A program made the position numbers and the translations under genes. A stretch of 64,000 bases of DNA from an uncultured Pelagibacteraceae bacterium. Lineage in GTDB: Bacteria; Pseudomonadota; Alphaproteobacteria; Pelagibacterales; Pelagibacteraceae. The notes under the pieces were generated by a model that saw only the letters and a program-made list of their open reading frames with translations, was not told the DNA's origin and searched no databases. Below, in pieces: positions 10,437-38,882 of the stretch; the stretch's first letter is position 1, and every line of letters starts with the position of its first letter. The DNA is taken from contig CACEQR010000001.1 of assembly GCA_902561765.1 (NCBI GenBank), forward strand, positions 1 through 64,000, given 5' to 3'.

Positions 10437-10547
10437 TTATTTCTTTTTTCTTTTAAAACTTCCTTTACCTTTTTTTGGTTTTACTACTCTTTTTTTATAT
10501 TTTGGAGTAAGTAAATCTTTTGCAATATAATTTTTTTTTTTAATCAA
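10437..10547 (-). CDS. ArfA-like alternative ribosome-rescue micro-protein (36 aa)
   Basis: Too short for the ORF track. The frame reads from TTG at 10547 (preceded by an in-frame stop) to TAA at 10437. The C-terminal half 'KRVVKPKKGKGSFKRKKK' closely resembles the core of E. coli ArfA ('RVEKNKKGKGSYMRK'), which recruits RF2 to stalled non-stop ribosomes. The TTG overlaps the end of the upstream winged-helix gene by eight bases, so translation would be coupled. The first residues are low-complexity lysine and the start is uncertain; the homology is recalled from memory, not computed. Confidence 0.55.
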   Translation of the reverse strand: MIKKKNYIAKDLLTPKYKKRVVKPKKGKGSFKRKKK

Positions 10548-11103
10548 TTATATACCCAGATTTTGAACTTTTTATAAAATCATTATCTTTAAAAACATTC
10601 ATAATTTTTTTTCTCAGCCTATATATATGAGTTTCAACCGTATGAGTTTCTAACTTTGAGTTGTGACCCCAGACCTCTGTTTGTAACTTTGAAATTTTAA
10701 CTGGTTTTTTTGAATTTTTAAGAAAAAAAACAATATTTGCCTCTCTTTCTGTCAAATTTAAGAATTTATCTTCATTAAAAATTTTTCTTGAATTTAAATT
10801 TAACTTATAAGGTCCTAAATATATATCTGATTGTTGGTTATATTTTTTTTTCAAAAAATTAATATTAATATTTTCCACTAATTTTGATAATTCAATAGGA
10901 AGCTGATCAATTACTATATTATTATCTATATCTTTTATTTTTTTGTTTGAAACAACCAAAAAATTATCCATATTAAATAACTTTTGTTGGTCTAATTTAT
11001 TTTTATCTACATTTATTAATTTAAAATTCAGATAATTATCTATTTCCTTTAATATTTGGTAGAGAGTATCAAAGTCATAGATTACTAAAGTTTGATTATT
11101 CAT
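10540..11103 (-). CDS. OmpR-type winged-helix regulator with a degenerate receiver domain
   Basis: A 187-residue protein. The C-terminal part ('LTEREANIVFFLKN' through 'VETHIYRLRKKI' and 'SKSGYIID') is a clear Trans_reg_C winged helix with its recognition helix. The N-terminal 100 residues look like a shortened receiver fold, but I see no acidic pair or phospho-acceptor Asp in a normal context, so phosphorylation is unlikely. It is divergent from the L,D-transpeptidase gene with 13 bases between starts, so it may control that gene. Confidence 0.7.
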   Translation of the reverse strand: MNNQTLVIYDFDTLYQILKEIDNYLNFKLINVDKNKLDQQKLFNMDNFLVVSNKKIKDIDNNIVIDQLPIELSKLVENININFLKKKYNQQSDIYLGPYKLNLNSRKIFNEDKFLNLTEREANIVFFLKNSKKPVKISKLQTEVWGHNSKLETHTVETHIYRLRKKIMNVFKDNDFIKSSKSGYIID

Positions 11104-17643: not shown

Positions 17644-18610
17644 AAGTTTTGAATTAGAAAAACTCAAATCGACTGAATTAGATATACACTTAATTTATGG
17701 AAACAATGATGGTATAAAGAGAGATATTATAAATAATTATTATTTAAAAAATTTTAAAGGTGATATTTTAAAGTATGAAGAACAAGAAATTTTACAAAAT
17801 AATGAAGAAATAATATCAAGTTTATTAACTAAATCTCTTTTCGAAAATAGTAAAATAATTATAATTTCAAGAGCTACAGATAAATTACTAAATTTTGTTC
17901 AAGATATTTTAGAAAGAGAAATATTAGAAACTAAAATTATAATAAAATCACCAAATTTAGACAAAAAATCTAAACTTAGAAATCTATTTGAAAAAGATAA
18001 AAAGGTAATATGCACACCAGTTTATGAAGATGATATTAGATCTCTTAGCTCTGTACTACAAAACTTTTTAAGAGATCATAAATTGAGTATATCTCAAGAG
18101 ATGAAGAATATATTAATCGAAAGATCAAAAGGAGATAGAATTAATTTAAAAAATGAATTAATAAAATTAAAAAATTTGTCTTTAAGTAGAAACAGACTTA
18201 ATGCTGAGGATATAATTAAATTATCGAATTTAGCTGAAAATTATAGTGTATTTGAATTATCCGATAATTACTTAGCCAAAAATTCAAAAAAAGTTTCTAA
18301 TATTCTAAATGAAAACAATTTTTCATCAGAAGATTGTATTTTAATAATTAGAACAATATTAAGCAAATTGAAGAGGCTTTTAAAATTAAGAACTAAAATT
18401 GACAATAATGAAAATATAAATGAAATTATATCTAGTTTTAAACCACCAATTTTTTGGAAAGAAAAAGATATTGTTAAAAAGCAAGTTCAATCGTGGTCTA
18501 CTGAAGAAGTTAAAGAAAAGATAATTAAAATAAATGGTTTAGAAACCTTGGTTAAGAAAAATTCAGTAAATTCAATGCTTTTTGTGTCAGATTTCGTAAG
18601 CAATTACTAA
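17633..18610 (+). CDS. holA: DNA polymerase III subunit delta
   Basis: A 325-residue protein with the HolA pattern: 'IHLIYGNNDGIKRDI' at the start, 'SLFENSKIIIISRA', and a C-terminal collar domain with 'ILIIRTILSKLKRLLKLR'. Delta opens the beta clamp within the clamp loader. It follows lptE, overlapping it by 11 bases, and is convergent with parB with a four-base overlap. Confidence 0.87.
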   Translation: MIIKSFELEKLKSTELDIHLIYGNNDGIKRDIINNYYLKNFKGDILKYEEQEILQNNEEIISSLLTKSLFENSKIIIISRATDKLLNFVQDILEREILETKIIIKSPNLDKKSKLRNLFEKDKKVICTPVYEDDIRSLSSVLQNFLRDHKLSISQEMKNILIERSKGDRINLKNELIKLKNLSLSRNRLNAEDIIKLSNLAENYSVFELSDNYLAKNSKKVSNILNENNFSSEDCILIIRTILSKLKRLLKLRTKIDNNENINEIISSFKPPIFWKEKDIVKKQVQSWSTEEVKEKIIKINGLETLVKKNSVNSMLFVSDFVSNY

Positions 18611-19458
18611 TAGTTTTGCTTAATAATTTCAACCAGTCTGTCTAATTGATCTGCAGCTTTATATTCTAAAGTAATAGTTCCTGTATTATTTTTTTTATTT
18701 TTGACAAATACCCTCATACCAATTTTATTTGATAATTCCTCCTCTAAATTTAATATATTTGGATCCTTTCTATTGGATGAACCTCTCGAGTAAGATTTCA
18801 GGACTCTTACTAAACCTTCAGTTTGTCTTACTGATAATTTTTTTGAAATAATTTTTTTTGCTAATAAAACTGCATTGTCTAATCCTACCAAAATTTTTGC
18901 GTGCCCTTGGGATAATTTTTCTTCAATTATTAATTCTATTATTTCTTGAGGAAGAGTTAAAAGTCTTAAACAATTCGATATATGCGCTCTACTTTTTCCA
19001 ATAAATTTTGATACCTTGTCTTGATCATAACTAAACTCATCGATTAATCTTTTATAACCTTCTGCTTCCTCAATTGGATTTAAATCTTTTCTTTGAACAT
19101 TTTCTACAATTGCAAATTCTAAAGTTTTAAGATTATCAGCATTTATTACGACAACGGGTACCTCATGTAATCCAGCATATTGAGCTGCTTGCCATCTTCT
19201 TTCTCCTGCTACTATCTCAAATTGATCAATATTATCAGATGATGGTCTAACAATAATAGGTTGGATTATTCCTCTTGCTCTTATTGAGTTTGTCAATTCC
19301 TCTAAACTAGTTTCATCGAATTTCTTTCTTGGTTGATATTTATTTCTAACTAATGAACTAATTGAAACATTTTTTTTATTGTCTATTTTTTCACTATCTC
19401 CTATTAAAGAAGATAGTCCTCTTCCTAAACCTTTTTTAGATTTAAAAGGATTAATCAT
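18607..19458 (-). CDS. parB: Chromosome-partitioning protein ParB
   Basis: A 283-residue ParB/Spo0J protein. It starts with the ParA-stimulating 'KKGLGRGLSSLIGD', then the CTPase motifs 'QPRKKFDE' and 'EIVAGERRWQAAQYAG' (GERRxRA-type), a helix-turn-helix around 'KVSKFIGKSRAHISNCLRL', and a C-terminal dimer domain. It loads at parS and spreads to organise the origin region. A perfect parS lies about 1.4 kb upstream in rsmG. Its start overlaps the parA stop by four bases. Confidence 0.96.
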   Translation of the reverse strand: MINPFKSKKGLGRGLSSLIGDSEKIDNKKNVSISSLVRNKYQPRKKFDETSLEELTNSIRARGIIQPIIVRPSSDNIDQFEIVAGERRWQAAQYAGLHEVPVVVINADNLKTLEFAIVENVQRKDLNPIEEAEGYKRLIDEFSYDQDKVSKFIGKSRAHISNCLRLLTLPQEIIELIIEEKLSQGHAKILVGLDNAVLLAKKIISKKLSVRQTEGLVRVLKSYSRGSSNRKDPNILNLEEELSNKIGMRVFVKNKKNNTGTITLEYKAADQLDRLVEIIKQNY

Positions 19459-20255
19459 GCTGCGCTCTCCACTGGTTTATCTTGATTTAGAAATTCTTCT
19501 GTAAAATTAAAATAGGCTCTGCTGCCTGGGCATGTCTTATCATAAATTAAAACAGGAACACCATGAGATGGAGCCTCAGATAATCTTACATTCCTAGGGA
19601 CCGCTGTATTGTAAACTTTATCTTTAAAATAGTTTCTTGCCTCAGTTTCAACCTCACTAGATAGTTTATTTCGCTTATCATACATTGTCAGAAGTATGCC
19701 TCTTATAACTAGCGCTGGATTTAAGTTTGATTTAATCCTCTCAATAGTTTTCATCAATTGGGTAAGTCCCTCTAGAGCAAAAAATTCCGTCTGAAGAGGC
19801 ACGACTAAGGCATCAGAGGCTACTAATGCCATAATTGTAAGTAGACTTAGGGATGGCGGACAGTCTATAATGATATAATCATAAGATGGCTCAGAATTGT
19901 TTAAAATCAAGCTTAATTCGTCTTTCAATTTAAAGGCTCTCCTACTGTCACCCGCAGTCTCTACCTCCAATCCTGACAAATCAACATTTGAAGAAATTAA
20001 ATTTAAATTTTCAAAGCTCGTAGATTGAATTACCTCTGAGATTTTTTTATTTCCGTTCAGAACATTGTAGATTGTAAGATCTGAGCTGATTGTGTTGGAT
20101 AATCCTAAACCAGTTGTGGCATTTCCTTGTGGGTCAAGATCAATTACTAGAATTTTTTTTCCTTTAATAGAAAGACCAGCCGCAAGATTGATAACTGTAG
20201 TTGTCTTCCCTACTCCACCTTTCTGATTAATTACTGAAATAATTTTTCTATCCAT
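19455..20255 (-). CDS. parA: Chromosome-partitioning ATPase ParA (Soj)
   Basis: A 266-residue deviant-Walker ATPase: 'VINQKGGVGKTTTVINLAAG' near the start, 'VLVIDLDPQGNATTGLG'-type Walker A' and 'YDYIIIDCPPSLSLLT'. It forms the nucleoid gradient that moves ParB-parS complexes. It lies between rsmG and parB on the same strand, the usual order near origins. Confidence 0.97.
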   Translation of the reverse strand: MDRKIISVINQKGGVGKTTTVINLAAGLSIKGKKILVIDLDPQGNATTGLGLSNTISSDLTIYNVLNGNKKISEVIQSTSFENLNLISSNVDLSGLEVETAGDSRRAFKLKDELSLILNNSEPSYDYIIIDCPPSLSLLTIMALVASDALVVPLQTEFFALEGLTQLMKTIERIKSNLNPALVIRGILLTMYDKRNKLSSEVETEARNYFKDKVYNTAVPRNVRLSEAPSHGVPVLIYDKTCPGSRAYFNFTEEFLNQDKPVESAA

Positions 20256-20892
20256 TTTTTTTTTTTAAATTTGAAATTTTTACTACAGTTGACTCATCAC
20301 TAGTCAAACTTTTCATTTGTTCTAAGTCAAATTTCCATTTCAATGAAACATCTTTTAAAATTTTTTTTCCACTCTTACCTAGATACATGACTATGTATTT
20401 AAAATTTTTAAAATTCTTTGTTGCTATTTCAAAAATAACAGGCAAAGGTTTAAATGCTCTACAAATAATTACATCAGTAACTAAATTTTTCTCCTCAAAA
20501 ATATTTTTTTGAAAAATTTTTGCTTCTAATTTAAATTTTTTTGTCATTTCTTTTAAAAAAATGCTCTTATGGTAGCTCTTCTCATAAAAAATTAGCTTAA
20601 AACCTGGTTTTTTTGATTTCATCAAAATACCTAAAACTATACTAGGTAACCCTGCCCCTGAGCCAAGATCAGTACATACATTAATGTCATTTTTATCAAT
20701 AAATTCAATAGTTTGTGCACTATCATATATATGTCTTGTTTTTATTGACTTTTCTGTACTTGAACTTATCAAATTTATTTTCCTGTTTGTACTCAAAATT
20801 GATTGAGAATAGTCATCTAACTCACTCAATGTTTCACGTGAAACATTTTGGAGGTAAATTTTATCTGTTTTTATAATTTTAGAATCAATCAA
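20248..20892 (-). CDS. rsmG: 16S rRNA (guanine(527)-N7)-methyltransferase RsmG (GidB)
   Basis: A 214-residue SAM methyltransferase with '[18 protein letters not shown]' at the N terminus, '[13 protein letters not shown]', and the SAM motif '[17 protein letters not shown]'. It methylates G527 in the 530 loop of 16S rRNA. The codons for 'NVSRET' hold a perfect parS palindrome, a well-known arrangement of this gene. Its start overlaps the mnmG stop by four bases. Confidence 0.95.
20830..20845. promoter_or_regulatory. parS centromere site (perfect)
   Basis: TGTTTCACGTGAAACA is the exact 16-bp consensus palindrome bound by ParB/Spo0J. It sits within the first 25 codons of rsmG and within 2.3 kb of parB and parA, so it is very probably the chromosomal partition site. 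Confidence 0.95.
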
Positions 20893-24214: not shown

Positions 24215-25069
24215 ATGATAATATGGCTTACTTCTTATCCAAAGAGTGGAAATACTTGGGTGCGTTCATTTTTAGTTTCGCTTTTATACAATAAAAAAAA
24301 TGAAACAAACTTAGAAGGATTAAATAATATACCGCAGTATCCTTTAAGATCTCATTTTAATAATCTTTTAGATAACATTGATGATATTAATGAAGTATCT
24401 TCAAAATGGATTATATCTCAAAAAAGAATTAACTCAGATAAAAAAAATAAATTTTTTAAAACACATCATGCTTTATGTAAAATTGGTAAATTTAGTTTTA
24501 CAAATTATGAAACATCTTTAGGTGCTATCCATATTGTAAGAGATCCAAGGAATATAATTAACTCAATTTTGTACCATTATTCTAAAAAAAGTTTTTTAGA
24601 GGCCAAAGAATTCATGTTAGATGAAACTCGAGCATTAGGCAAAAAGTTTGATCCAAATAGTCCATCCGTAAATCAAGATATGTTTACAGTATTAACATCA
24701 TGGAAAACTCATTATCTTTCATGGAAAAATTTTAAAAAAAATTATCTTTTAATTAAATATGAAAATTTAGTCTCTGAACCAGATAAAGAATTTCGTAAAA
24801 TTACTAAATATTTAAATGATGTTATGCATATTAAGATCAAAGAAGATAAAATTGATCATGCAATAAAGTCAAATTCCTTTGAAAATTTAAAGAAAATAGA
24901 AAATAGAGATGGTTTTAAAGAAGCAATTAAGGATAAAGGCTCAGGGGAAGTAAAGCGTTTTTTTAATTTAGGTCCAAATAATAAATGGGAAAAAATATTA
25001 GACAGTGAAATAAAAGATGAAATAGAAAAAAAATTTAATGTTGAAATGAAAGAGTTAGGTTATTTATAA
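24215..25069 (+). CDS. Sulfotransferase family protein, array copy 1
   Basis: A 284-residue Sulfotransfer_1-type protein. '[14 protein letters not shown]' near residue 8 is the PAPS 5'-phosphosulfate loop, 'HIVRDPRNIINSI' the 3'-phosphate motif, and 'FFNLGPNNKWEKIL' the C-terminal region-IV motif. It would transfer sulfate from PAPS to an unknown acceptor, probably a glycan, lipid or small metabolite. It has no membrane segment. It is the first of four abutting paralogues, placed opposite to the strand of mnmE and rho. Confidence 0.85.
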   Translation: MIIWLTSYPKSGNTWVRSFLVSLLYNKKNETNLEGLNNIPQYPLRSHFNNLLDNIDDINEVSSKWIISQKRINSDKKNKFFKTHHALCKIGKFSFTNYETSLGAIHIVRDPRNIINSILYHYSKKSFLEAKEFMLDETRALGKKFDPNSPSVNQDMFTVLTSWKTHYLSWKNFKKNYLLIKYENLVSEPDKEFRKITKYLNDVMHIKIKEDKIDHAIKSNSFENLKKIENRDGFKEAIKDKGSGEVKRFFNLGPNNKWEKILDSEIKDEIEKKFNVEMKELGYL

Positions 25070-25114
25070 ATGATAATTTGGTTAGCATCTTATCCCAAGA
25101 GTGGTAACACCTGG
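25043..25114 (+). repeat. 72-base junction repeat of the sulfotransferase array, copy 1/2
   Basis: This junction holds the last eight codons of one gene, the stop TAA and the first 15 codons of the next. Equivalent segments of the same length recur at 25904-25975 and 26750-26821 with high nucleotide identity, strongest between the first two. They are the likely crossover points for unequal recombination in the array. Confidence 0.7.
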
Positions 25115-25930
25115 TTAAGATTTTACATTATTTCATTGTTGATGGGTAAAAAAGTTGATCTAAATTTAAATCACCTTAAAGCAATTATCTCTTATCCTGA
25201 CAAAACACATTTTAAAGGTTTATTAAAAGACGTTCTTAATATTGATGAAATTGCACAAAATTGGATTGTTTCTCAAAATAGAATTAACTCAGATAAAACT
25301 TTTAAATTTTTTAAAACTCACAATATGTTTATAAAATATAAAAATTATCCTTTCACAGATGTAAAAAATACTCTAGCAACAATTCACATTGTAAGAGACC
25401 CAAGAAATGTAATAACTTCTTTAAAAAATCATTATAGTTTGCAGGATTACGAGACAGCAAAAAAATTTTTATTTTACGATAATCAAATCCTTACACCATC
25501 AGAGAAAGAGAAAGAAAAATATTTAAATAAAGAAAAACATCCTTTGCCTCAAATTGTTGGTTCCTGGAGAGCTCATTATACCTCGTGGAAAAACATGAAA
25601 AAAAATTATTTACTTGTAAAATATGAAGATTTAATAAAGAACCCATTAGATGGATTTACTGAAATAACAAATTTTATTTCCAAAGTCCTCAAAATAAAGT
25701 TCAGTAAAGATCAAATAGAAAATGCTGTAGAACTTAGCTCATTTGGTAATCTAAAAAAAATGGAAGAAAAATATGGTTTTACAGAAAGCTCAACTAATAA
25801 TGAAGGAAAAAGAAATAAGTTTTTTTATTTAGGACCAAAAAATGATTGGAGAGAAATTCTGGAGAGCAAATACTCTGAAGAAATTAGTAAAAAATATGAA
25901 TTTGAAATGAAAGAATTGGGTTATTTATAA
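25070..25930 (+). CDS. Sulfotransferase family protein, array copy 2
   Basis: A 286-residue paralogue of copy 1. '[14 protein letters not shown]', '[13 protein letters not shown]' and 'FFYLGPKNDWREIL' retain the PAPS-binding motifs. Its ATG follows the TAA of copy 1 with no spacer, so re-initiation is likely. The sequence between motifs differs a lot from its neighbours, suggesting diverged acceptor specificity and not a recent duplication. Confidence 0.85.
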   Translation: MIIWLASYPKSGNTWLRFYIISLLMGKKVDLNLNHLKAIISYPDKTHFKGLLKDVLNIDEIAQNWIVSQNRINSDKTFKFFKTHNMFIKYKNYPFTDVKNTLATIHIVRDPRNVITSLKNHYSLQDYETAKKFLFYDNQILTPSEKEKEKYLNKEKHPLPQIVGSWRAHYTSWKNMKKNYLLVKYEDLIKNPLDGFTEITNFISKVLKIKFSKDQIENAVELSSFGNLKKMEEKYGFTESSTNNEGKRNKFFYLGPKNDWREILESKYSEEISKKYEFEMKELGYL

Positions 25931-25975
25931 ATGATAATTTGGTTAGCATCCTATCCTAAGAGTGGTAATACATGG
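25904..25975 (+). repeat. 72-base junction repeat of the sulfotransferase array, copy 2/3
   Basis: Nearly the same as the 25043 junction, including 'TTATTTATAAATGATAATTT' and 'TTAGCATC', with a few mostly synonymous changes. Confidence 0.7.
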
Positions 25976-26776
25976 TTAAGAGCTTTACTAACATCATACT
26001 TATACTCAGACACTGGGGACTTTAACTTCAATCTTTTAGAAAAAATTGATTCTTTTCCAAATATAAAACATTTTCAAAATTATTTAGATAAATTTGAAAA
26101 AGTTGAAGATACTGCAAAATACTGGATAAATGTTCAGGAAAATTTAAATAAAGATAAAAGATTAAAAATTTTAAAAACTCACAATGCTTTGTTTAAAATT
26201 AATAATTCTTCATTTACTAATAATGAAAATACTCTTGGGGTAATTTATATTGTAAGAGACCCTCGTAATGTAATTACTTCGATTTGCAATCATTACCAAT
26301 TTACACTCGATCAGGCTCTTGATTTTATGATAACAAAAAAAAAGGCATTATTTTCTCGTAAAAATGGAAGATTTCTAGCTTTTCAACCTATTCTTTCATG
26401 GTCATTAAATTACAAATCTTGGGCTGATAATATTAAATACCCAACTGTTTTAATAAAGTATGAGGAATTAGAGAATGAAACTTTTTTTACTTTTAAAAAA
26501 ACATTAAAATTCATAAAAAAAATTTCTAATTCTGATTTCATAATTGACGATCAAAAAATAAAAAATTGTATTAATTCATGTAGTTTTGAAAAACTTAAAA
26601 AATTGGAAAATAATATTGGCTTCAATGAGGCTCCTATTAAAAAAGGAAGTAATGAAAGATTAAAATTTTTTAATTTGGGTAAAGAAAATAATTGGAGAGA
26701 TATTCTGAGTAAAAACATTATTGATGAAATAGAAAAAGAATTTAAAATTGAAATGAAGGAGCTTGGTTATCTTTAA
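25931..26776 (+). CDS. Sulfotransferase family protein, array copy 3
   Basis: A 281-residue paralogue with '[14 protein letters not shown]', '[13 protein letters not shown]' and 'FFNLGKENNWRDIL'. Again the ATG abuts the preceding TAA. It ends in the shared 'EMKELGYL'. The middle part (about residues 125-165) is the most divergent in the array, where acceptor-binding loops would lie. Confidence 0.85.
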   Translation: MIIWLASYPKSGNTWLRALLTSYLYSDTGDFNFNLLEKIDSFPNIKHFQNYLDKFEKVEDTAKYWINVQENLNKDKRLKILKTHNALFKINNSSFTNNENTLGVIYIVRDPRNVITSICNHYQFTLDQALDFMITKKKALFSRKNGRFLAFQPILSWSLNYKSWADNIKYPTVLIKYEELENETFFTFKKTLKFIKKISNSDFIIDDQKIKNCINSCSFEKLKKLENNIGFNEAPIKKGSNERLKFFNLGKENNWRDILSKNIIDEIEKEFKIEMKELGYL

Positions 26777-26821
26777 ATGATTATATGGCTAGCATCATAC
26801 CCTAAAAGTGGCAACACTTGG
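26750..26821 (+). repeat. 72-base junction repeat of the sulfotransferase array, copy 3/4
   Basis: Same layout and length as the other two junctions but with more synonymous changes ('GGTTATCTTTAAATGATTAT'), so it is the older or less recently converted copy. Confidence 0.65.
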
Positions 26822-27628
26822 GTTAGATCTTTTATATCCTCAATTTTATTTACGAAGGATGGTGATGTTGATTTATCTAAGCTTAAAAATATAAGTCAAT
26901 TTCCTCTCCGATCTCAATTTACTAATTATATTGATGATCTACAAGATGTTAAAAAAGTTTACCAAAATTGGTCGAATGTCCAAAATTATATGAACCTTGA
27001 TAACAAAATTAAATTTTTAAAAACTCATCATGTTAATTGTAAAATTGAAAATTTTGAGTTTACGGATGATAATAATTCATTAGGGGTGATTTATATAGTA
27101 AGAGATCCAAGAAATGTTGCATGTTCAGTTAAAAATCACTTTTCTTTAGAAAATTATGATGAAGTAAAAAATTTTTTATTTAGAGAACACAATTGGTTAG
27201 GAATTATTACAGACAAGAATATTAAACCTTTGGATAATAAAATACCAACGCTAATAAGTTCTTGGAAAACAAATTACTTATCTTGGAAAAATAAAACTAA
27301 AAATTATCTTCTTATAAAATATGAAAATTTATTAGAAAATCCATATCTTGAATTTGGAAAAATTTCTAAATATTTAGAAAATCATTTAAATGTTAAATTT
27401 GATGAAAAAAAAATAAAAAAAGCTATTAAAACATGTTCTTTTAGAAACTTACAACAGCTAGAAAAAGATGGAAAATTTAAAGAACAAACAGTTGATAAAC
27501 AAAATAAAAGTGTGAAATTTTTTCATTTAGGCCCAGAGAACGACTGGAAAAAAATTTTAGACAAGAACATTTCGAGAGAAATCGAAAATAAATTTAAAGC
27601 AGAGATGGAAGAATTAGGCTATTTATGA
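26777..27628 (+). CDS. Sulfotransferase family protein, array copy 4
   Basis: A 283-residue paralogue with '[14 protein letters not shown]', '[13 protein letters not shown]' and '[14 protein letters not shown]', ending 'EMEELGYL'. Its start resembles copy 1 in the '[13 protein letters not shown]' segment (copy 1 has 'PLRSHFNNLLDNI'), so 1 and 4 may be closest relatives. Its TGA overlaps the end of the convergent rho gene by six bases. Confidence 0.85.
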
Positions 27629-29391: not shown

Positions 29392-30384
29392 TTATAAGTT
29401 TTTTGTAACTAGATGTTTTAACAACGAAATATGATCTTCACTATCGTTCAAACATGGTACCATTTCAAAATTTTCACCTCCTGATTTGATAAAACTTTCT
29501 TTTCCTTGGATCGATATTTCTTCTAGGGTTTCTACGCAATCAGATGAAAATCCAGGGCAAATAACCAAAATATTTTTTTTACCTTCTTTAGGTAGAGTCT
29601 CAAAAGTTTTATCTGTGTAAGGTTGCAACCACTCTTGAGGACCAAATCTAGATTGAAAGGTAGTCTTGATTTCAATATCTGAATACTGTTCTGAAATTAA
29701 TCTGGTAGTTTTATGGCAATAACAATGATAAGGATCACCTTTATCAAAATATTTTTTTGGAATTCCATGATAAGATGCAATTATTAAATCTGGCTTCCAA
29801 TTAATTTCACTTATCTTTTTTAAAATACTATTTTTAATCGCCTCAATGTACAATGGTTCAGACTCATAATGAGGTATTATTTTAAGATTTGGTTGCCACC
29901 TCATTTTCATTAAAGTTCTATAAACTTCATCACAAACTGTTGCTGTTGTTGCGGCAGCATACTGAGGATAAAGTGGGAGTATAATTAAATTTTCACAACC
30001 TTTTTTTTGAAGATCATGAATTTTACCTTTAATACTTGGATTTCCATATCTCATAGCGAAATCAACAATTAAAACTTCGTTGCTAATTTGATTAGATAGT
30101 TTTTCTGCTTGCCTTTCTGTAAAATATCTTAAAGGAGACATATTTTTATCTTCCATCCATATTTCTTTATAAGCTTTGGCTGTTTTAGAAGGTCTAAAGG
30201 TAAGTATAAATAAGTTAAGTATTACTTGCCAAATTAATGGATTAACTTCAATTACTCGTCTGTCTGACAAGAATTCTTTTAAATATTTCCTTATATCTAA
30301 CCAGCTCGTTGAGTCAGGTGTGCCAAGATTAACAATTAAAATACCTGTTTTGCCATAATTAATTTTTGGATGGTCTGGTGTCAT
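29392..30384 (-). CDS. hemH: Ferrochelatase
   Basis: A 330-residue protein with 'GILIVNLGTPDS', the metal and porphyrin site 'IASYHGIPKKYFDKGDPYH', and 'FQSRFGPQEWLQPYTD'. It inserts Fe2+ into protoporphyrin IX. Its start overlaps the hemE stop by four bases, making hemE-hemH-hemJ one transcription unit. Confidence 0.97.
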   Translation of the reverse strand: MTPDHPKINYGKTGILIVNLGTPDSTSWLDIRKYLKEFLSDRRVIEVNPLIWQVILNLFILTFRPSKTAKAYKEIWMEDKNMSPLRYFTERQAEKLSNQISNEVLIVDFAMRYGNPSIKGKIHDLQKKGCENLIILPLYPQYAAATTATVCDEVYRTLMKMRWQPNLKIIPHYESEPLYIEAIKNSILKKISEINWKPDLIIASYHGIPKKYFDKGDPYHCYCHKTTRLISEQYSDIEIKTTFQSRFGPQEWLQPYTDKTFETLPKEGKKNILVICPGFSSDCVETLEEISIQGKESFIKSGGENFEMVPCLNDSEDHISLLKHLVTKNL

Positions 30385-31382
30385 TTAAAATTTCTTACAA
30401 TCTTGATTAGTTCCTCAACCATTTCAATTTTAGTCTCAGGAAGTATTCCGTGACCTAAATTAAAAATGTATGGGTGATCTTTAAAAATACCAAGATATTT
30501 TTCAACTTCTATTTTAAGAGTTTTTTGATCAGTTAGTAATATTTTTGGGTCAAGACCGCCTTGTATTGGTATTTTGATTTCATTGAGTATTTTCTTTGGG
30601 TCAACATTATAATCTATATTTACAGCGTCAGGTTTAACAATTTCGCAAAAGTTTTTATAATCTTTAATACCTCTTGGAAAACAAATAACAGGAACTCCCA
30701 GTTTTTTTACATAATCTACAATATTAAGGGTAGGTATATAAATATATTCTGGGATTTTATCTTCTAATAATCCAGCCCAACTATCAAAAATTTGAATAAC
30801 TTGAGCTCCAGCCTCTATTTGATTTTTTATATGTAGTTTTAAGAATTTCTCTATTACTACTAGTAATCTATTAATTAAAAAATCATCTTTAAAGAATTCA
30901 TCCGATAAACCTTTTTTTGGAGAAGATTTATTAATCATGTAAACTAGTATTGTCCAAGGAGCTCCAACAAATCCAATCATATCCCTATTGCTCATTAAAG
31001 GGTCTTTGGAAGTCTTTTCGATTGCTTTATAAACTTTATAAATTTTTTCAGTAAAACTTATTTCATCAACATTTTTTATTATTTCTAAATCTATATCTCC
31101 TAATTTAGGTCCAAAATTTTTTTCAAATTCTACTTTTTGACCAAGGCCATAAGGTAACATTAAAATATCTGAAAATATTACAGCTCCATCAAAACCGAAC
31201 CTCCTAATAGGTTGTAGTGTAATTTCAGACGCTAAATCATTATTTAAGCAAAGTTTTATAAAGTCTTGGTTTTCTTTTCTAATTACTCTAAACTCTGGAA
31301 GATACCTTCCTGCCTGTCTCATTAGCCATATAGGATTAAATGTAGTATCTTTATTTTTAATACAATTAGTTATGGGGCTCAT
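30381..31382 (-). CDS. hemE: Uroporphyrinogen decarboxylase
   Basis: A 333-residue protein with the family signature 'PIWLMRQAGRYLPEFR' and 'FGFDGAVIFSDIL', where the catalytic Asp lies. It decarboxylates uroporphyrinogen III to coproporphyrinogen III. It starts at the edge of the predicted oriC, the position hemE has in Caulobacter and Rickettsia. Confidence 0.97.
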   Translation of the reverse strand: MSPITNCIKNKDTTFNPIWLMRQAGRYLPEFRVIRKENQDFIKLCLNNDLASEITLQPIRRFGFDGAVIFSDILMLPYGLGQKVEFEKNFGPKLGDIDLEIIKNVDEISFTEKIYKVYKAIEKTSKDPLMSNRDMIGFVGAPWTILVYMINKSSPKKGLSDEFFKDDFLINRLLVVIEKFLKLHIKNQIEAGAQVIQIFDSWAGLLEDKIPEYIYIPTLNIVDYVKKLGVPVICFPRGIKDYKNFCEIVKPDAVNIDYNVDPKKILNEIKIPIQGGLDPKILLTDQKTLKIEVEKYLGIFKDHPYIFNLGHGILPETKIEMVEELIKIVRNFK

Positions 31383-31423
31383 ATAAATAGATATATATTA
31401 TTTACTTTATTAGTATTATGTAT

Positions 31424-31432
31424 TGTGAATAA
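31424..31432 (-). promoter_or_regulatory. DnaA box
   Basis: TGTGAATAA on the plus strand reads TTATTCACA on the minus strand, an exact match to TTATNCACA, 42 bases outside the hemE start. Confidence 0.7.
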
Positions 31433-31459
31433 CGTAAATTAGTCAATTTCCACATTTAA

Positions 31460-31475
31460 TTAACTTTTTATTAAC
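31460..31475 (+). promoter_or_regulatory. CtrA-type motif in oriC
   Basis: TTAACTTTTTATTAAC fits TTAA-N7-TTAAC exactly. In Caulobacter CtrA sites in oriC silence initiation. In such AT-rich DNA the motif can occur by chance, and no ctrA gene is in the window. Confidence 0.4.
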
Positions 31476-31665
31476 AATTTTGATCTTAAATTAATAAGGT
31501 TTTTTAAGGATAAAATAGAGTTTCCAGCATTTTTATGTATTTTGTATAACTATAATCACATTTTATAATTCAGTTAATTTTATCAGAAAAAAACAAACTT
31601 CTATGCACTTAAAGAATAAATCTGCATTTTTCTTATTTTACTTATAGTTTATAAACATTTTATAC

Positions 31666-32493
31666 ATGAGAAACTTATACCAAATTTACCTAATATCTGA
31701 TTCTACTGGTGAAACACTAGATAGGATTTTTTTGGCTTTAAAAGCTCAATTCCCTAATTTTGAGTATGAGACTAACCATTTTTCTTTCACTCGTACTGAA
31801 AGCCAAACTTTAAGCATTTTAAAACAAGCTAAGAAAGATAAAAATTCTATTATTTTATATACAATAGTGAATAGTAAACTTGCAAAGTATCTTACAGAAA
31901 AAGCTTATGAAAGGGAAATACCATGTTTTGGTGTTCTTGGTGATTTAATATTAAATTTCTCAAAAGTGCTTAATCAAAAAGCTTCGCATCAGCCAAGCGG
32001 TCAACATGTTCTAAATGAAGAATACTACGATAGAATTGAAGCTATTCAGTTTACTATGAATCATGATGACGGTAATCAAACTGATGATATAGAGAAATCC
32101 GATATCATTCTTTTAGGGGTAAGTAGGACAAGCAAAACCCCAACAGCAATTTATTTAGCTAATAGAGGTTTTAAAACTTCAAATATCCCATTAGTAAATA
32201 AGAATTCGATTCCATCAAAAGTTACAGAAAAAAATTTTTCTCCCTGTGTTGTCGGTTTAGTAACTGAAGCGGAGAGATTATATGATTTAAGAAAAAATAG
32301 ATTAAATTCTCTTAAAGAAGATCAAAACAGTGAGTACGTAAATATAGATAAAATTAGGGATGAATTAAATAGTTCTAAAAAAATATTTAAAGAAAATAAT
32401 TGGCCTACAATAGATGTAACTAGAAAATCAGTTGAAGAAACAGCGGCATCTGTAATTAAAATTTATGAAATAAAAAATAAAAAAAATGCCTAA
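31666..32493 (+). CDS. Pyruvate, phosphate dikinase regulatory protein (PPSR/DUF299)
   Basis: A 275-residue protein with the P-loop 'GVSRTSKTPTAIYLANRG' near residue 151, 'YLISDSTGETLDRI' at the start and 'DVTRKSVEETAASV' at the end, all DUF299 hallmarks. These bifunctional kinase/phosphorylases control PEP synthase or pyruvate phosphate dikinase. It is the RP001 homologue that marks oriC in alphaproteobacteria. It begins the rightward operon with maf, aroE, coaE and dnaQ. Confidence 0.93.
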   Translation: MRNLYQIYLISDSTGETLDRIFLALKAQFPNFEYETNHFSFTRTESQTLSILKQAKKDKNSIILYTIVNSKLAKYLTEKAYEREIPCFGVLGDLILNFSKVLNQKASHQPSGQHVLNEEYYDRIEAIQFTMNHDDGNQTDDIEKSDIILLGVSRTSKTPTAIYLANRGFKTSNIPLVNKNSIPSKVTEKNFSPCVVGLVTEAERLYDLRKNRLNSLKEDQNSEYVNIDKIRDELNSSKKIFKENNWPTIDVTRKSVEETAASVIKIYEIKNKKNA

Positions 32494-34442: not shown

Positions 34443-35088
34443 TACTGAAACTACAGGATTATCTGTAAGAGATGGGCATCGGATTGTTGAAATTGGATGT
34501 ATAGAGTTAGATAATTTAGTCCCAACAAAAAATATATTTCATGTTTATTTAAACCCTGAGAGAAAGGTTTCAGAGAAGGCTTTTGAGGTTCATGGATATA
34601 CCGATGAATTTTTATCAACAAAACAAAAATTTGTTGAAATTGCTAGAGACTTTCTATCCTTTATCGAGGGTAAAAAGATTATAATTCATAACGCCGAGTT
34701 TGATATTGGACATTTAAATAATGAATTATCTTTGGTTGGACTTCAAAAAATAAGCAATTCAAATGTAATTGACACATTAGAATTGGCAAGGAATAAATTT
34801 CCAGGATCGGGCATAAGTTTAGATGCGCTTTGTAAAAGATTTAGAATCGATAATTCTAAAAGGGAAAAGCATACTGCTTTAATTGACTGTGATTTATTAT
34901 CAAAAGTCTATATAAATTTAATTGGTCAAAGAGAACCCACATTAAATTTAGTTGATAATAATGAAGTTAAGGAAACATCAAATGAAGGCAAATTAGATTA
35001 TTATAAAAAAATTATTCTTCCTACTAAAGAAGAACTATTGAGTCATAGTGAATTTCTTAAAAAAAACTTTAAAAAAAACTACTTCTAA
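34423..35088 (+). CDS. dnaQ: DNA polymerase III subunit epsilon (proofreading exonuclease)
   Basis: A 221-residue DEDDh exonuclease: ExoI 'VLDTETTGLSVRDGHRIVEIG', ExoII 'IIIHNAEFDIGHLN', ExoIII 'HTALIDCDLL'. The C-terminal tail after residue 180 contacts the alpha subunit. It removes mismatches during replication. It closes the five-gene run starting at the origin and is convergent with secB with a four-base overlap. Confidence 0.96.
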   Translation: MKEIVLDTETTGLSVRDGHRIVEIGCIELDNLVPTKNIFHVYLNPERKVSEKAFEVHGYTDEFLSTKQKFVEIARDFLSFIEGKKIIIHNAEFDIGHLNNELSLVGLQKISNSNVIDTLELARNKFPGSGISLDALCKRFRIDNSKREKHTALIDCDLLSKVYINLIGQREPTLNLVDNNEVKETSNEGKLDYYKKIILPTKEELLSHSEFLKKNFKKNYF

Positions 35089-35516
35089 TTTAATCTAGCT
35101 TTATATAATTCTTCAAAATCAATTTTTTTTCCAAATTTTAAATCAGGTAGTCCTGAGTTTCTCAGAATATTTAAAAATTTTTGCTCTAACTCTGGGTATA
35201 TTTTTGTCTGTAGATCACACAATACTATTTTTTCTAGTTCATCTTTTTTAATTTTTAAGTCTAAAATATCAATTACTGTGGCGTATCTTATTTGAAAAAA
35301 ACCTGTCTCTTTTTTTTTATTTGGATTTGAATAACTTAAAGTAGTTCCGACTTCTATCATTTTCTTTTTTAAAGGCTTTGAATTTATATCAACTTTCATT
35401 TGAAACTCTGGAATTGTATTTCTTATTGTGAGTAGACTCTCAGGACTTGGTATTTCTATTGATAAATCCTGAATATAACTAACAACTATTTTATATTTAT
35501 TTTCCATCTTTATCAT
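35085..35516 (-). CDS. secB: Protein-export chaperone SecB
   Basis: A 143-residue protein with the SecB pattern 'VVSYIQDLSIEIPSP', 'EVGTTLSYSN' and the C-terminal 'FGKKIDFEELYKARLN'. It keeps preproteins unfolded and hands them to SecA. Its start overlaps the fxsA-like gene, as is common next to dnaQ in alphaproteobacteria. Confidence 0.92.
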   Translation of the reverse strand: MIKMENKYKIVVSYIQDLSIEIPSPESLLTIRNTIPEFQMKVDINSKPLKKKMIEVGTTLSYSNPNKKKETGFFQIRYATVIDILDLKIKKDELEKIVLCDLQTKIYPELEQKFLNILRNSGLPDLKFGKKIDFEELYKARLN

Positions 35517-35925
35517 CTATATCTTCATACTCACCTTCTATAAAATTTTTTCCTACGTTTTTACTTTTCTTCTTTGATGAATATTTCTTTGAATACTTAC
35601 TTAAAATAATTTTCCTTGTAACTGGAAAAATTAACAAAATTCCGATTATATCAGTTGCAAATCCTGGCAGTATTAATAGTAAAGCTGCAAATGCAATTGC
35701 TGCTCCTGATATCATCTCATAAAGAGGAACTTCATTCCTAACTAATTGAGACATTCCTGAACGTAGAGTATTAAAACCTTCATATCTTGCGTACCAAATA
35801 CCCACAATTGCCGTAATAAGTATGAGTAAAACAGTATTTAATGCCCCAATTTGAGAACCAATCTTTATGAAAAGGTAGATTTCTATAAGAGGAATACCTA
35901 AAATAAGAATTAATGCTGTGTTCAT
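35497..35925 (-). CDS. FxsA-family membrane protein
   Basis: A 142-residue protein. 'LILGIPLIEIYLFIKIGSQIG', 'LLILITAIVGIWYAR' and 'LLILPGFATDIIGILLIFPVTR' are the membrane segments and the conserved loop of the FxsA family. Its cytoplasmic tail is Lys- and Asp-rich. Overexpression in E. coli relieves phage exclusion, but the normal role is unknown. Divergent from the Tim44-like gene. Confidence 0.88.
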   Translation of the reverse strand: MNTALILILGIPLIEIYLFIKIGSQIGALNTVLLILITAIVGIWYARYEGFNTLRSGMSQLVRNEVPLYEMISGAAIAFAALLLILPGFATDIIGILLIFPVTRKIILSKYSKKYSSKKKSKNVGKNFIEGEYEDIDDKDGK

Positions 35926-36994: not shown

Positions 36995-38365
36995 TTATAA
37001 AATAAATTTCGAAAGATCTGTGTCTTTTGCAAGTTCTCCAATATTTTTTTTTATATATTCTGCATCGATACTTATTTTCTCACCAGCTCTATCAGTTGCT
37101 GTAAAACTAATTTCATCTAAAACTCTTTCTATAATAGTGTGCAATCTTCTAGCTCCTATATTTTCTACTGTTGTGTTTACCTCGTTTGCAATTGTTGCAA
37201 TGGTGTCTATTCCATCATCTGTAAATTCTAAATCTACATTTTCAGTTTTAAGTAAAGCTTTATATTGTTTGATTAAACTATTATCTGGCTCTTTCAAAAT
37301 TCTTTTAAAATCCTCACTATTTAATGCATCTAATTCAACTCTAATCGGCAATCTTCCTTGAAGTTCAGGCAAAAGATCTGATGGTTTTGCTAATTGGAAC
37401 GCGCCAGAGGCTATAAATAATATGTGGTCAGTTTTAATCGGACCATATTTTGTACTTACTGTTGTTCCTTCAATAAGTGGAAGCAAATCTCTTTGCACAC
37501 CTTCTCTTGAAACATCTCCACCAACTCTATCTGTTCTTGCAGAAATTTTATCTATCTCATCTAAAAATACGATACCATTATTCTCAGTTGTATTTTTGGC
37601 AGATTTAATAATTTTATCTTGCTCGATTAATTTATCAGATTCTTCATTTAATAATATTTCATGAGACTCTTTTACTGACATTTTTTTCTTCTTAGGTTTT
37701 TGACCCATAGATTTTCCAAGCATGTCAGAAATATTTATCATTCCAACATTTGCTCCAGGCATTCCAGGAATTTCAAATGATGGCATTCCACCACCACTTT
37801 CTGTGACAGCAATTTCTATTTCGTTATCATCTAAATCACCATCTCTTAATCTTTTTCTAAAACTTTCTCTAGTTGCAACGCTTGCTTTGTTTCCAACTAT
37901 TGCATCAAGTACTCTGTCTTCTGCTAATTTTTGTGCTTTGGCATGAACTTCTTTTCTCTTTTTTACTTTTTCCATGGCAATTGCAATTTCAAGAAGATCT
38001 CTTATTATTTGTTCTACGTCTCTCCCAACATATCCAACCTCAGTAAATCTTGTTGCTTCAACTTTTACAAATGGAGCTTCTGCTAATTTTGATAATCTTC
38101 TAGATATTTCAGTTTTACCAACACCTGTTGGTCCCATCATTAATATGTTTTTTGGAAGAACTTCGTCTTTCATATCATCATCCAAAGCTTGCCTTCTCCA
38201 TCTATTTCTCAGTGCGATTGCAACAGCTCTTTTTGCATTATTTTGTCCTACAACAAATCTATCTAACTCAGAAACTATTTCTCTTGGAGATAATGAGTTT
38301 TGAATATTATTTTCTTCTTTTTTAACTTTAGCATTAGGAAGAGTTGTGACGTTTGATTTTTCCAT
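36995..38365 (-). CDS. hslU: ATP-dependent protease ATPase subunit HslU
   Basis: A 456-residue AAA+ unfoldase. '[25 protein letters not shown]' begins it, Walker A is '[10 protein letters not shown]' near residue 76, pore motif '[15 protein letters not shown]', Walker B '[12 protein letters not shown]', and the C-terminal 'DTDLSKFIL' that docks in HslV. It feeds substrates to HslV. One base separates it from the hslV stop. Confidence 0.98.
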
Positions 38366-38366
38366 C

Positions 38367-38882
38367 TTAAATTTTCTCTATATTTAAATTATCATTTGTA
38401 AAAACACATATTTCGGATGCAACTTTAATTGCTTTTTTTGCAACTTCCTCTGCTGATAGATCTGTATCCATCAATACTTTTGCAGAAGCTAGTGCATAAT
38501 TTCCACCAGATCCTATTCCAATTACATCTCCTTCAGGCTCCAAAACATCTCCAGTTCCTGAAATAATAAAACTATTATCTTTATCACCAACTGCCATTAA
38601 AGCTTCTAATCTTCTTAAATATTTATCTGTTCGCCAATCTTTAGCTAATTCAACAGCTGCTCTTGCTAGATTTCCAGCATGTTTTTCTAATTTAGACTCT
38701 AGTCTTTCAAATAATGTTAATGCGTCTGCAGTGGATCCAGCAAAACCTGCGATCACATTTCTTTTCTCAATCTTACGAACTTTCTTAGCAGTTTTCTTAA
38801 TTACTGTATTCCCCATACTAACTTGGCCATCACCAGCAACTACTACTTCATTGTTTTTTCTCACTAAAACTATCGTTGTCAT
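38367..38882 (-). CDS. hslV: ATP-dependent protease peptidase subunit HslV
   Basis: A 171-residue proteasome-beta-like peptidase. The N terminus '[24 protein letters not shown]' is processed to expose the catalytic Thr, and '[21 protein letters not shown]' is typical. It forms the chamber of HslUV. First gene of the unit, with a divergent 91-base gap to hisB. Confidence 0.97.

Follow-up and report, generated by a model that had tools for sequence, protein, structure and literature searches.

SAR11 is among the most abundant groups of bacteria in the ocean. We found no study in the open literature dedicated to its replication origin; an in silico DoriC entry for strain HTCC1062 may well exist. 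We asked whether a single gap between two genes, hemE and PPSR, is the chromosomal replication origin (oriC) of a Pelagibacteraceae (SAR11) bacterium known from a draft genome of 1.21 Mb (36 contigs, 84% complete). The window analysed is a stretch of 64,000 nucleotides from one of these contigs, and a first-pass annotation had proposed an oriC at the hemE-PPSR junction within it. The observations reported here concern sequence elements, conservation, skew position and synteny. Synteny, skew, parS, box enrichment and conservation above that of coding DNA all strongly support the proposal, and we conclude that positions 31383-31665 are very probably oriC.

Gene setting of the interval

The interval at 31383-31665 is an intergenic gap of 283 bp that contains no genes and separates the divergent hemE (30381-31382, minus strand) and PPSR (31666-32493, plus strand; the RP001/COG1806 homologue, DUF299). 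Its GC content is 18.0% (82% AT), compared to 29.3% over the 203.7-kb contig, in agreement with its initial description as gene-free and extremely AT-rich. Only 1.1% of the 283-bp windows on the contig are as AT-rich, as expected of an oriC unwinding element. The gap is the fifth longest in the contig, where the median gap measures 12 bp.

Genes had been said to run leftward on one side of the gap and rightward on the other. This holds for the nearest genes but not for sulfotransferase genes at 24215-27628, which lie on the plus strand, or for the leftward genes at 35085-35925 and 36995-38882. The sulfotransferase genes are four in tandem, mutually similar and situated between rho and mnmE; in the relative G030, rho directly adjoins mnmE with no sulfotransferase genes between them. 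They are probably an insertion near the origin that is read against the direction of the fork. The hemH gene beside hemE (29392-30384) is 74-77% identical to hemH of the relatives G030 and G005 and only 29% identical to the same-place hemH of G018 and G044, sequence differences that point to a probable gene replacement within the genus.

The origins of Caulobacter (Cori) and Rickettsia are flanked by hemE and RP001 (COG1806) (PMC1914354). As in origins of this type, hemE and PPSR were divergent at both borders in 30/30 first loci, and each of the 69 hemE-PPSR intervals that were measured within the family had a gap of 261-289 bp with 13-26% GC. Because the location obeys the hemE/RP001 rule, the kind of origin is already known (PMC1914354), and part of the case for an origin here is an argument by analogy with other Alphaproteobacteria.

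Strand skew, dnaA and parS

As the host genome is fragmented, skew was determined in three complete relatives, G018 (1,308,759 bp), G044 and G007, using 20-kb samples that covered approximately half of each genome. The cumulative GC-skew minimum was 17 kb (G018), 32 kb (G044) and 5 kb (G007) from PPSR, with amplitude p values of 0.01 or less. Since skew can arise from gene orientation alone, a leading/lagging term was included in the fit of third-position (GC3) skew to correct for gene orientation. At a resolution of 45-70 kb, the corrected change point included PPSR in all three relatives, and dnaA was rejected as the change point in all three, with a drop in log-likelihood of 8-11. The locus is therefore found at the GC-skew switch of the three complete relatives, as expected of an oriC. 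The first-pass annotation had named a skew minimum elsewhere as the result that would overturn its call, and the call withstood this test. No skew switch was observed around 31383-31665 within the window's own 204-kb contig, where the 31 kb to the left of the interval has the opposite skew sign (15 and 18 genes).

An origin at dnaA was also considered. No DnaA box within one mismatch was found in the 375-393 bp upstream of dnaA in five genomes, and this, together with the skew of the three relatives, led us to reject dnaA. The distance from dnaA to PPSR is about 62-73 kb in every complete genome, so that the spacing of dnaA and origin is nearly constant across genera.

A perfect parS, the only one in the genome, is located at 20830-20845 (plus strand) within rsmG, 10.5 kb from the interval, and parB and parA occupy 18607-20255 (minus strand). 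The parS-PPSR distance was 7-19 kb in 12/12 genomes, with a single site in all except one genome with a pair, and the sister family f2 had a parS-hemE distance of 8-13 kb in 9/9 genomes. These distances agree with the parS/parAB within tens of kb that characterize hemE/RP001-type origins.

DnaA boxes

The interval contains a perfect DnaA box, TTATTCACA, at 31424-31432 on the minus strand (box 1), as the first-pass annotation had recognized. One such box proves little alone, because the genome contains 52 copies of TTATNCACA and 56 of its reversed control. When one mismatch was allowed, however, the interval contained 4 boxes versus 0.75 expected from shuffles (p = 0.0045), a cluster beyond chance of the kind expected at an oriC. 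This contradicts the earlier statement that a dense DnaA-box cluster is absent. The interval ties as the densest 283-bp window for near-boxes within 164 kb. Four near-consensus boxes also fall within another stretch of 283 bp, inside a coding gene (G000:C1 131101-131500), and this cluster at 131.1-131.5 kb of the contig is probably due to chance.

Across 48 intervals of the same genus, TTATNCACA was enriched 21-fold and TTATNNACA 9-fold over dinucleotide shuffles, while their reversed controls were at 0.6 and 0.25, respectively; as the relatives are not independent, these figures overstate the number of events. Other intergenic DNA displayed little or no enrichment of DnaA boxes. The recognition helix of DnaA itself is kept (RRSR...RPRQ, RDHTTV).

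Individual boxes were followed through the same 48 intervals. At box 1, a box within one mismatch was present in 38/48. Abutting it in tandem is a second, degenerate box-like 9-mer at 31433-31441 (minus strand; CGTAAATTA on the plus strand), which is the third most conserved 9-mer in the genus alignment and may bind DnaA. Three weak boxes with an 11-bp period extend over 31446-31476 on the plus strand. They start at 31446, 31457 and 31468 and were found in 15, 15 and 22 of the 48 intervals, respectively; two of them, as they stand in the window, depart from the consensus by 2-3 bases. A central weak pair at 31541-31561 (31541 or 31543 on the minus strand, 31553 on the plus strand) is variably kept, with the box at 31553 present in 20/48. 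The position at 31572-31580 (minus strand) is degenerate in the window, but most of the relatives with a box here (27/48) have TTATTAACA. Nearest PPSR, the box TTATAAACA at 31649-31657 (plus strand) was present in 31/48; after it comes a TTTATAC repeat, at the start of PPSR. In a diverged set of 23 intervals, less than 75% identical, boxes on the same strand were 11 bp apart 17 times versus 0.5 expected in shuffles, and 22 bp apart 11 times versus 0.6 expected.

A DnaA-trio module beside box 1

Wide conservation among bacteria has been reported for an arrangement of DnaA box, spacer and DnaA-trios (3'-GAT-5', with the box within 16 bp) (PMC8287927, PMC6669920, PMC8235120), which the sequence beside box 1 fits. 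How the trios should be oriented with respect to the box was taken from these papers and from the B. subtilis sequence. To the left of box 1, the plus strand of the window reads TAT-TAG-TAT-TAT, then GTAT, then TGTGAATAA. The trio repeat (31408-31419, plus strand) has a strict T-A-[TG] period of 3 bp in the 23 diverged intervals, and the 4-nt spacer (31420-31423, plus strand), GTAT in the window, is GTCC, GTCA or TACC in other lineages. Of the 23 diverged intervals, 21-23 have T at positions -7, -10, -13 and -16, 17-20 have A at -6, -9, -12 and -15, and T or G predominates at -5, -8, -11 and -14; the repeats thus keep a period of 3 and a fixed distance of 4 nt from box 1. A basal unwinding system (BUS) comprises a box no more than 16 bp from at least three NAN trios in matching orientation. 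The window has four trios at a 4-nt spacer, and at least three trios at this spacer were present in 13/23 diverged intervals. Beyond the trios, a very AT-rich flank (31383-31407) probably continues the DNA unwinding element, given its sequence and position.

The alignment of the interval among SAR11 genomes, which the first-pass annotation had suggested as a check, was performed with 62 close relatives. Identity was 98-100% in the trio/box core (99.3% for the trios, 98.4% for box 1 and 100% for the second box at 31433-31441), compared to 86-87% in the flanking coding DNA (85.6% for hemE and 86.6% for PPSR). The middle of the interval was 68% identical in these relatives, and 31648-31665 was 93.6% identical. 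The earlier suggestion of a minimal origin was not sustained, as the interval combines an unwinding module of trios and two boxes with an array of weak boxes phased at 11 bp.

Loss of border genes

Border genes have been lost from the locus in some relatives. In the genus g7 (G007 and G015), hemE and hemH are gone from the origin locus, where rho and PPSR are now separated by 353 bp (L199:5329-5681 and L200:5649-6001), and this gap retains TTATTAG-GTCA-TGTTTATAA and further boxes. In the family f2, of the same order, PPSR is gone from 25/25 genomes searched. The nine f2 loci that were read (L213-L221) have a gap of about 275 bp between hemE and maf, which retains up to TAGTAGTAGTAGTTG-TACC-TGTGAATTTGTTTATAA, with near-perfect TAG trios. 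The AT-rich gap and its core thus persist in both lineages, which supports an origin at this locus. The losses in g7 and f2 indicate that selection holds the origin sequence and not the neighbouring genes.

CtrA, IHF and GANTC motifs

The perfect TTAA-N7-TTAAC motif noted in the first reading is present at 31460-31475 (TTAACTTTTTATTAAC), but as a signal it is at chance. The window contains 4 copies versus 4.0 expected, and TTAA-N7-TTAA is 1.2-fold over shuffles in the genus; on these counts CtrA motifs do not exceed chance. It spans two boxes of the weak-box array and has the same 11-bp period, and is therefore a by-product of box phasing.

No CtrA orthologue was found in the host genome (84% complete), and eight complete relatives agree. 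The best CtrA-like protein of the host is PhoB (329.9 bits, cut-off 296.2), and the CtrA model scored 140 on the same protein versus a cut-off of 350. The best CtrA matches in nine SAR11 genomes were about 30-35% identical, compared to 52-82% where most of the other Alphaproteobacteria sampled gave a clear match. With the motif at chance and no orthologue found, control of the origin by CtrA is unsupported. Elsewhere in the window, 10540-11103 (minus strand) encodes a 187-aa protein with a PhoB-like winged helix in its C-terminal half and weak similarity to response regulators in its N-terminal half.

IHF motifs in the intervals of the genus gave no support for a role of IHF (WATCAN5WTR 1.0-fold, WATCAN4TTR 0.65-fold). 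GANTC, the CcrM target, occurred once versus 12.9 expected in 71 intervals; specific avoidance of GANTC was rejected, as the control palindromes CTNAG and GTNAC were equally depleted.

Comparison with known origins

The SAR11 interval resembles the Caulobacter and Rickettsia origins in lying between divergent hemE and PPSR/RP001, in being AT-rich, and in having DnaA boxes and nearby parAB and parS. It is about 100 bp shorter than the Rickettsia origin (383-396 bp). In contrast to these origins, it has CtrA and IHF motifs at chance frequency and a clear trio module, and the search for a CtrA orthologue found none. It also resembles the BUS known from B. subtilis and the majority of bacteria (PMC6669920, PMC8287927): two boxes lie in tandem, the spacer measures 4 nt, and the trios, repeats of 5'-TAG/TAT-3' (3'-GAT-5'), are in matching orientation; the sister family f2 carries TAG four times without a mismatch. 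It differs in that many trios of the window's genus are TAT rather than TAG, the spacer GTAT is not GC-rich, the trio-proximal box is the better match, and the origin is not beside dnaA. The low-affinity DnaA-box arrays of E. coli oriC have a 2-bp separation (PMC8488378), and the SAR11 weak boxes are likewise 2 bp apart (11-bp period) in one orientation. SAR11, however, has one array of three boxes where E. coli has two arrays of four, it lacks R2/R4-like high-affinity anchors, and its IHF motif is not enriched.

Alternative explanations

A gap between two divergent genes must hold both of their promoters, and TATTAGTATTAT resembles a -10 element on the hemE strand. The conserved blocks might thus be the divergent hemE and PPSR promoters and leaders, with the box-like matches arising by chance in AT-rich DNA. 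We consider this very unlikely. The promoter of either border gene cannot explain the core, because the core outlives hemE in g7 and PPSR in f2. Chance matches would not account for the excess of DnaA boxes, 9- to 21-fold relative to shuffles, or for the depletion of the reversed controls. Across relatives, the spacing between the trios and the start of hemE is not divisible by 3, so that hemE coding does not explain the trio period either, and both skew and parS independently indicate the interval.

We regard another site nearby, such as dnaA or a position within the parAB-mnmG cluster, as an equally improbable origin. oriC does adjoin dnaA in many bacteria, and the skew has a resolution of only 45-70 kb; against this, skew rejects dnaA in three genomes, the upstream DNA of dnaA is without boxes, and no 283-bp window in 164 kb surpasses the interval in DnaA boxes. 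The least credible alternative is an origin of the Caulobacter type, with CtrA acting as repressor at TTAA-N7-TTAAC. Although this motif is perfect in the window and 11-fold enriched in the genus g4, its frequency in the window and that of TTAA-N7-TTAA in the genus speak against it, its 11-bp period coincides with that of the TTATTAACA box array, and the protein comparisons point to PhoB and to CtrA matches far below those of most other Alphaproteobacteria examined.

Proposed mechanism and implications

With 31383-31665 as oriC, the course of initiation can be modelled on B. subtilis, H. pylori and E. coli, from which DnaA binding, unwinding and initiation are inferred. ATP-DnaA would bind at box 1 (31424-31432) and at its tandem neighbour (31433-31441), and would fill the 11-bp-phased weak boxes at 31446-31476 with help from the outer boxes near 31543-31580 and 31649. 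A DnaA filament would extend leftward from box 1, over the 4-nt spacer, onto the plus strand of the trios (31408-31419), and would stretch and open the AT-rich DNA toward hemE for helicase loading. Forks would depart both ways, and parS (20830) and ParAB would segregate the copied origin.

On balance, we lean toward the interpretation that SAR11 has a DnaA-only origin, in which weak boxes in an E. coli-like 11-bp array, joined to a B. subtilis-like trio module, occupy the ancestral alphaproteobacterial locus, freed from CtrA and kept in place despite the loss of border genes. A trio module with a phased weak-box array and without CtrA refines the notion of a "minimal origin", and both elements offer single-base targets for work on initiation control in a streamlined, CtrA-less alphaproteobacterium. 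Estimates of growth rate from metagenomes, which use peak-to-trough ratios, require the correct origin, and for SAR11 this very probably lies at PPSR and not at dnaA or position 1 of the deposited genomes.
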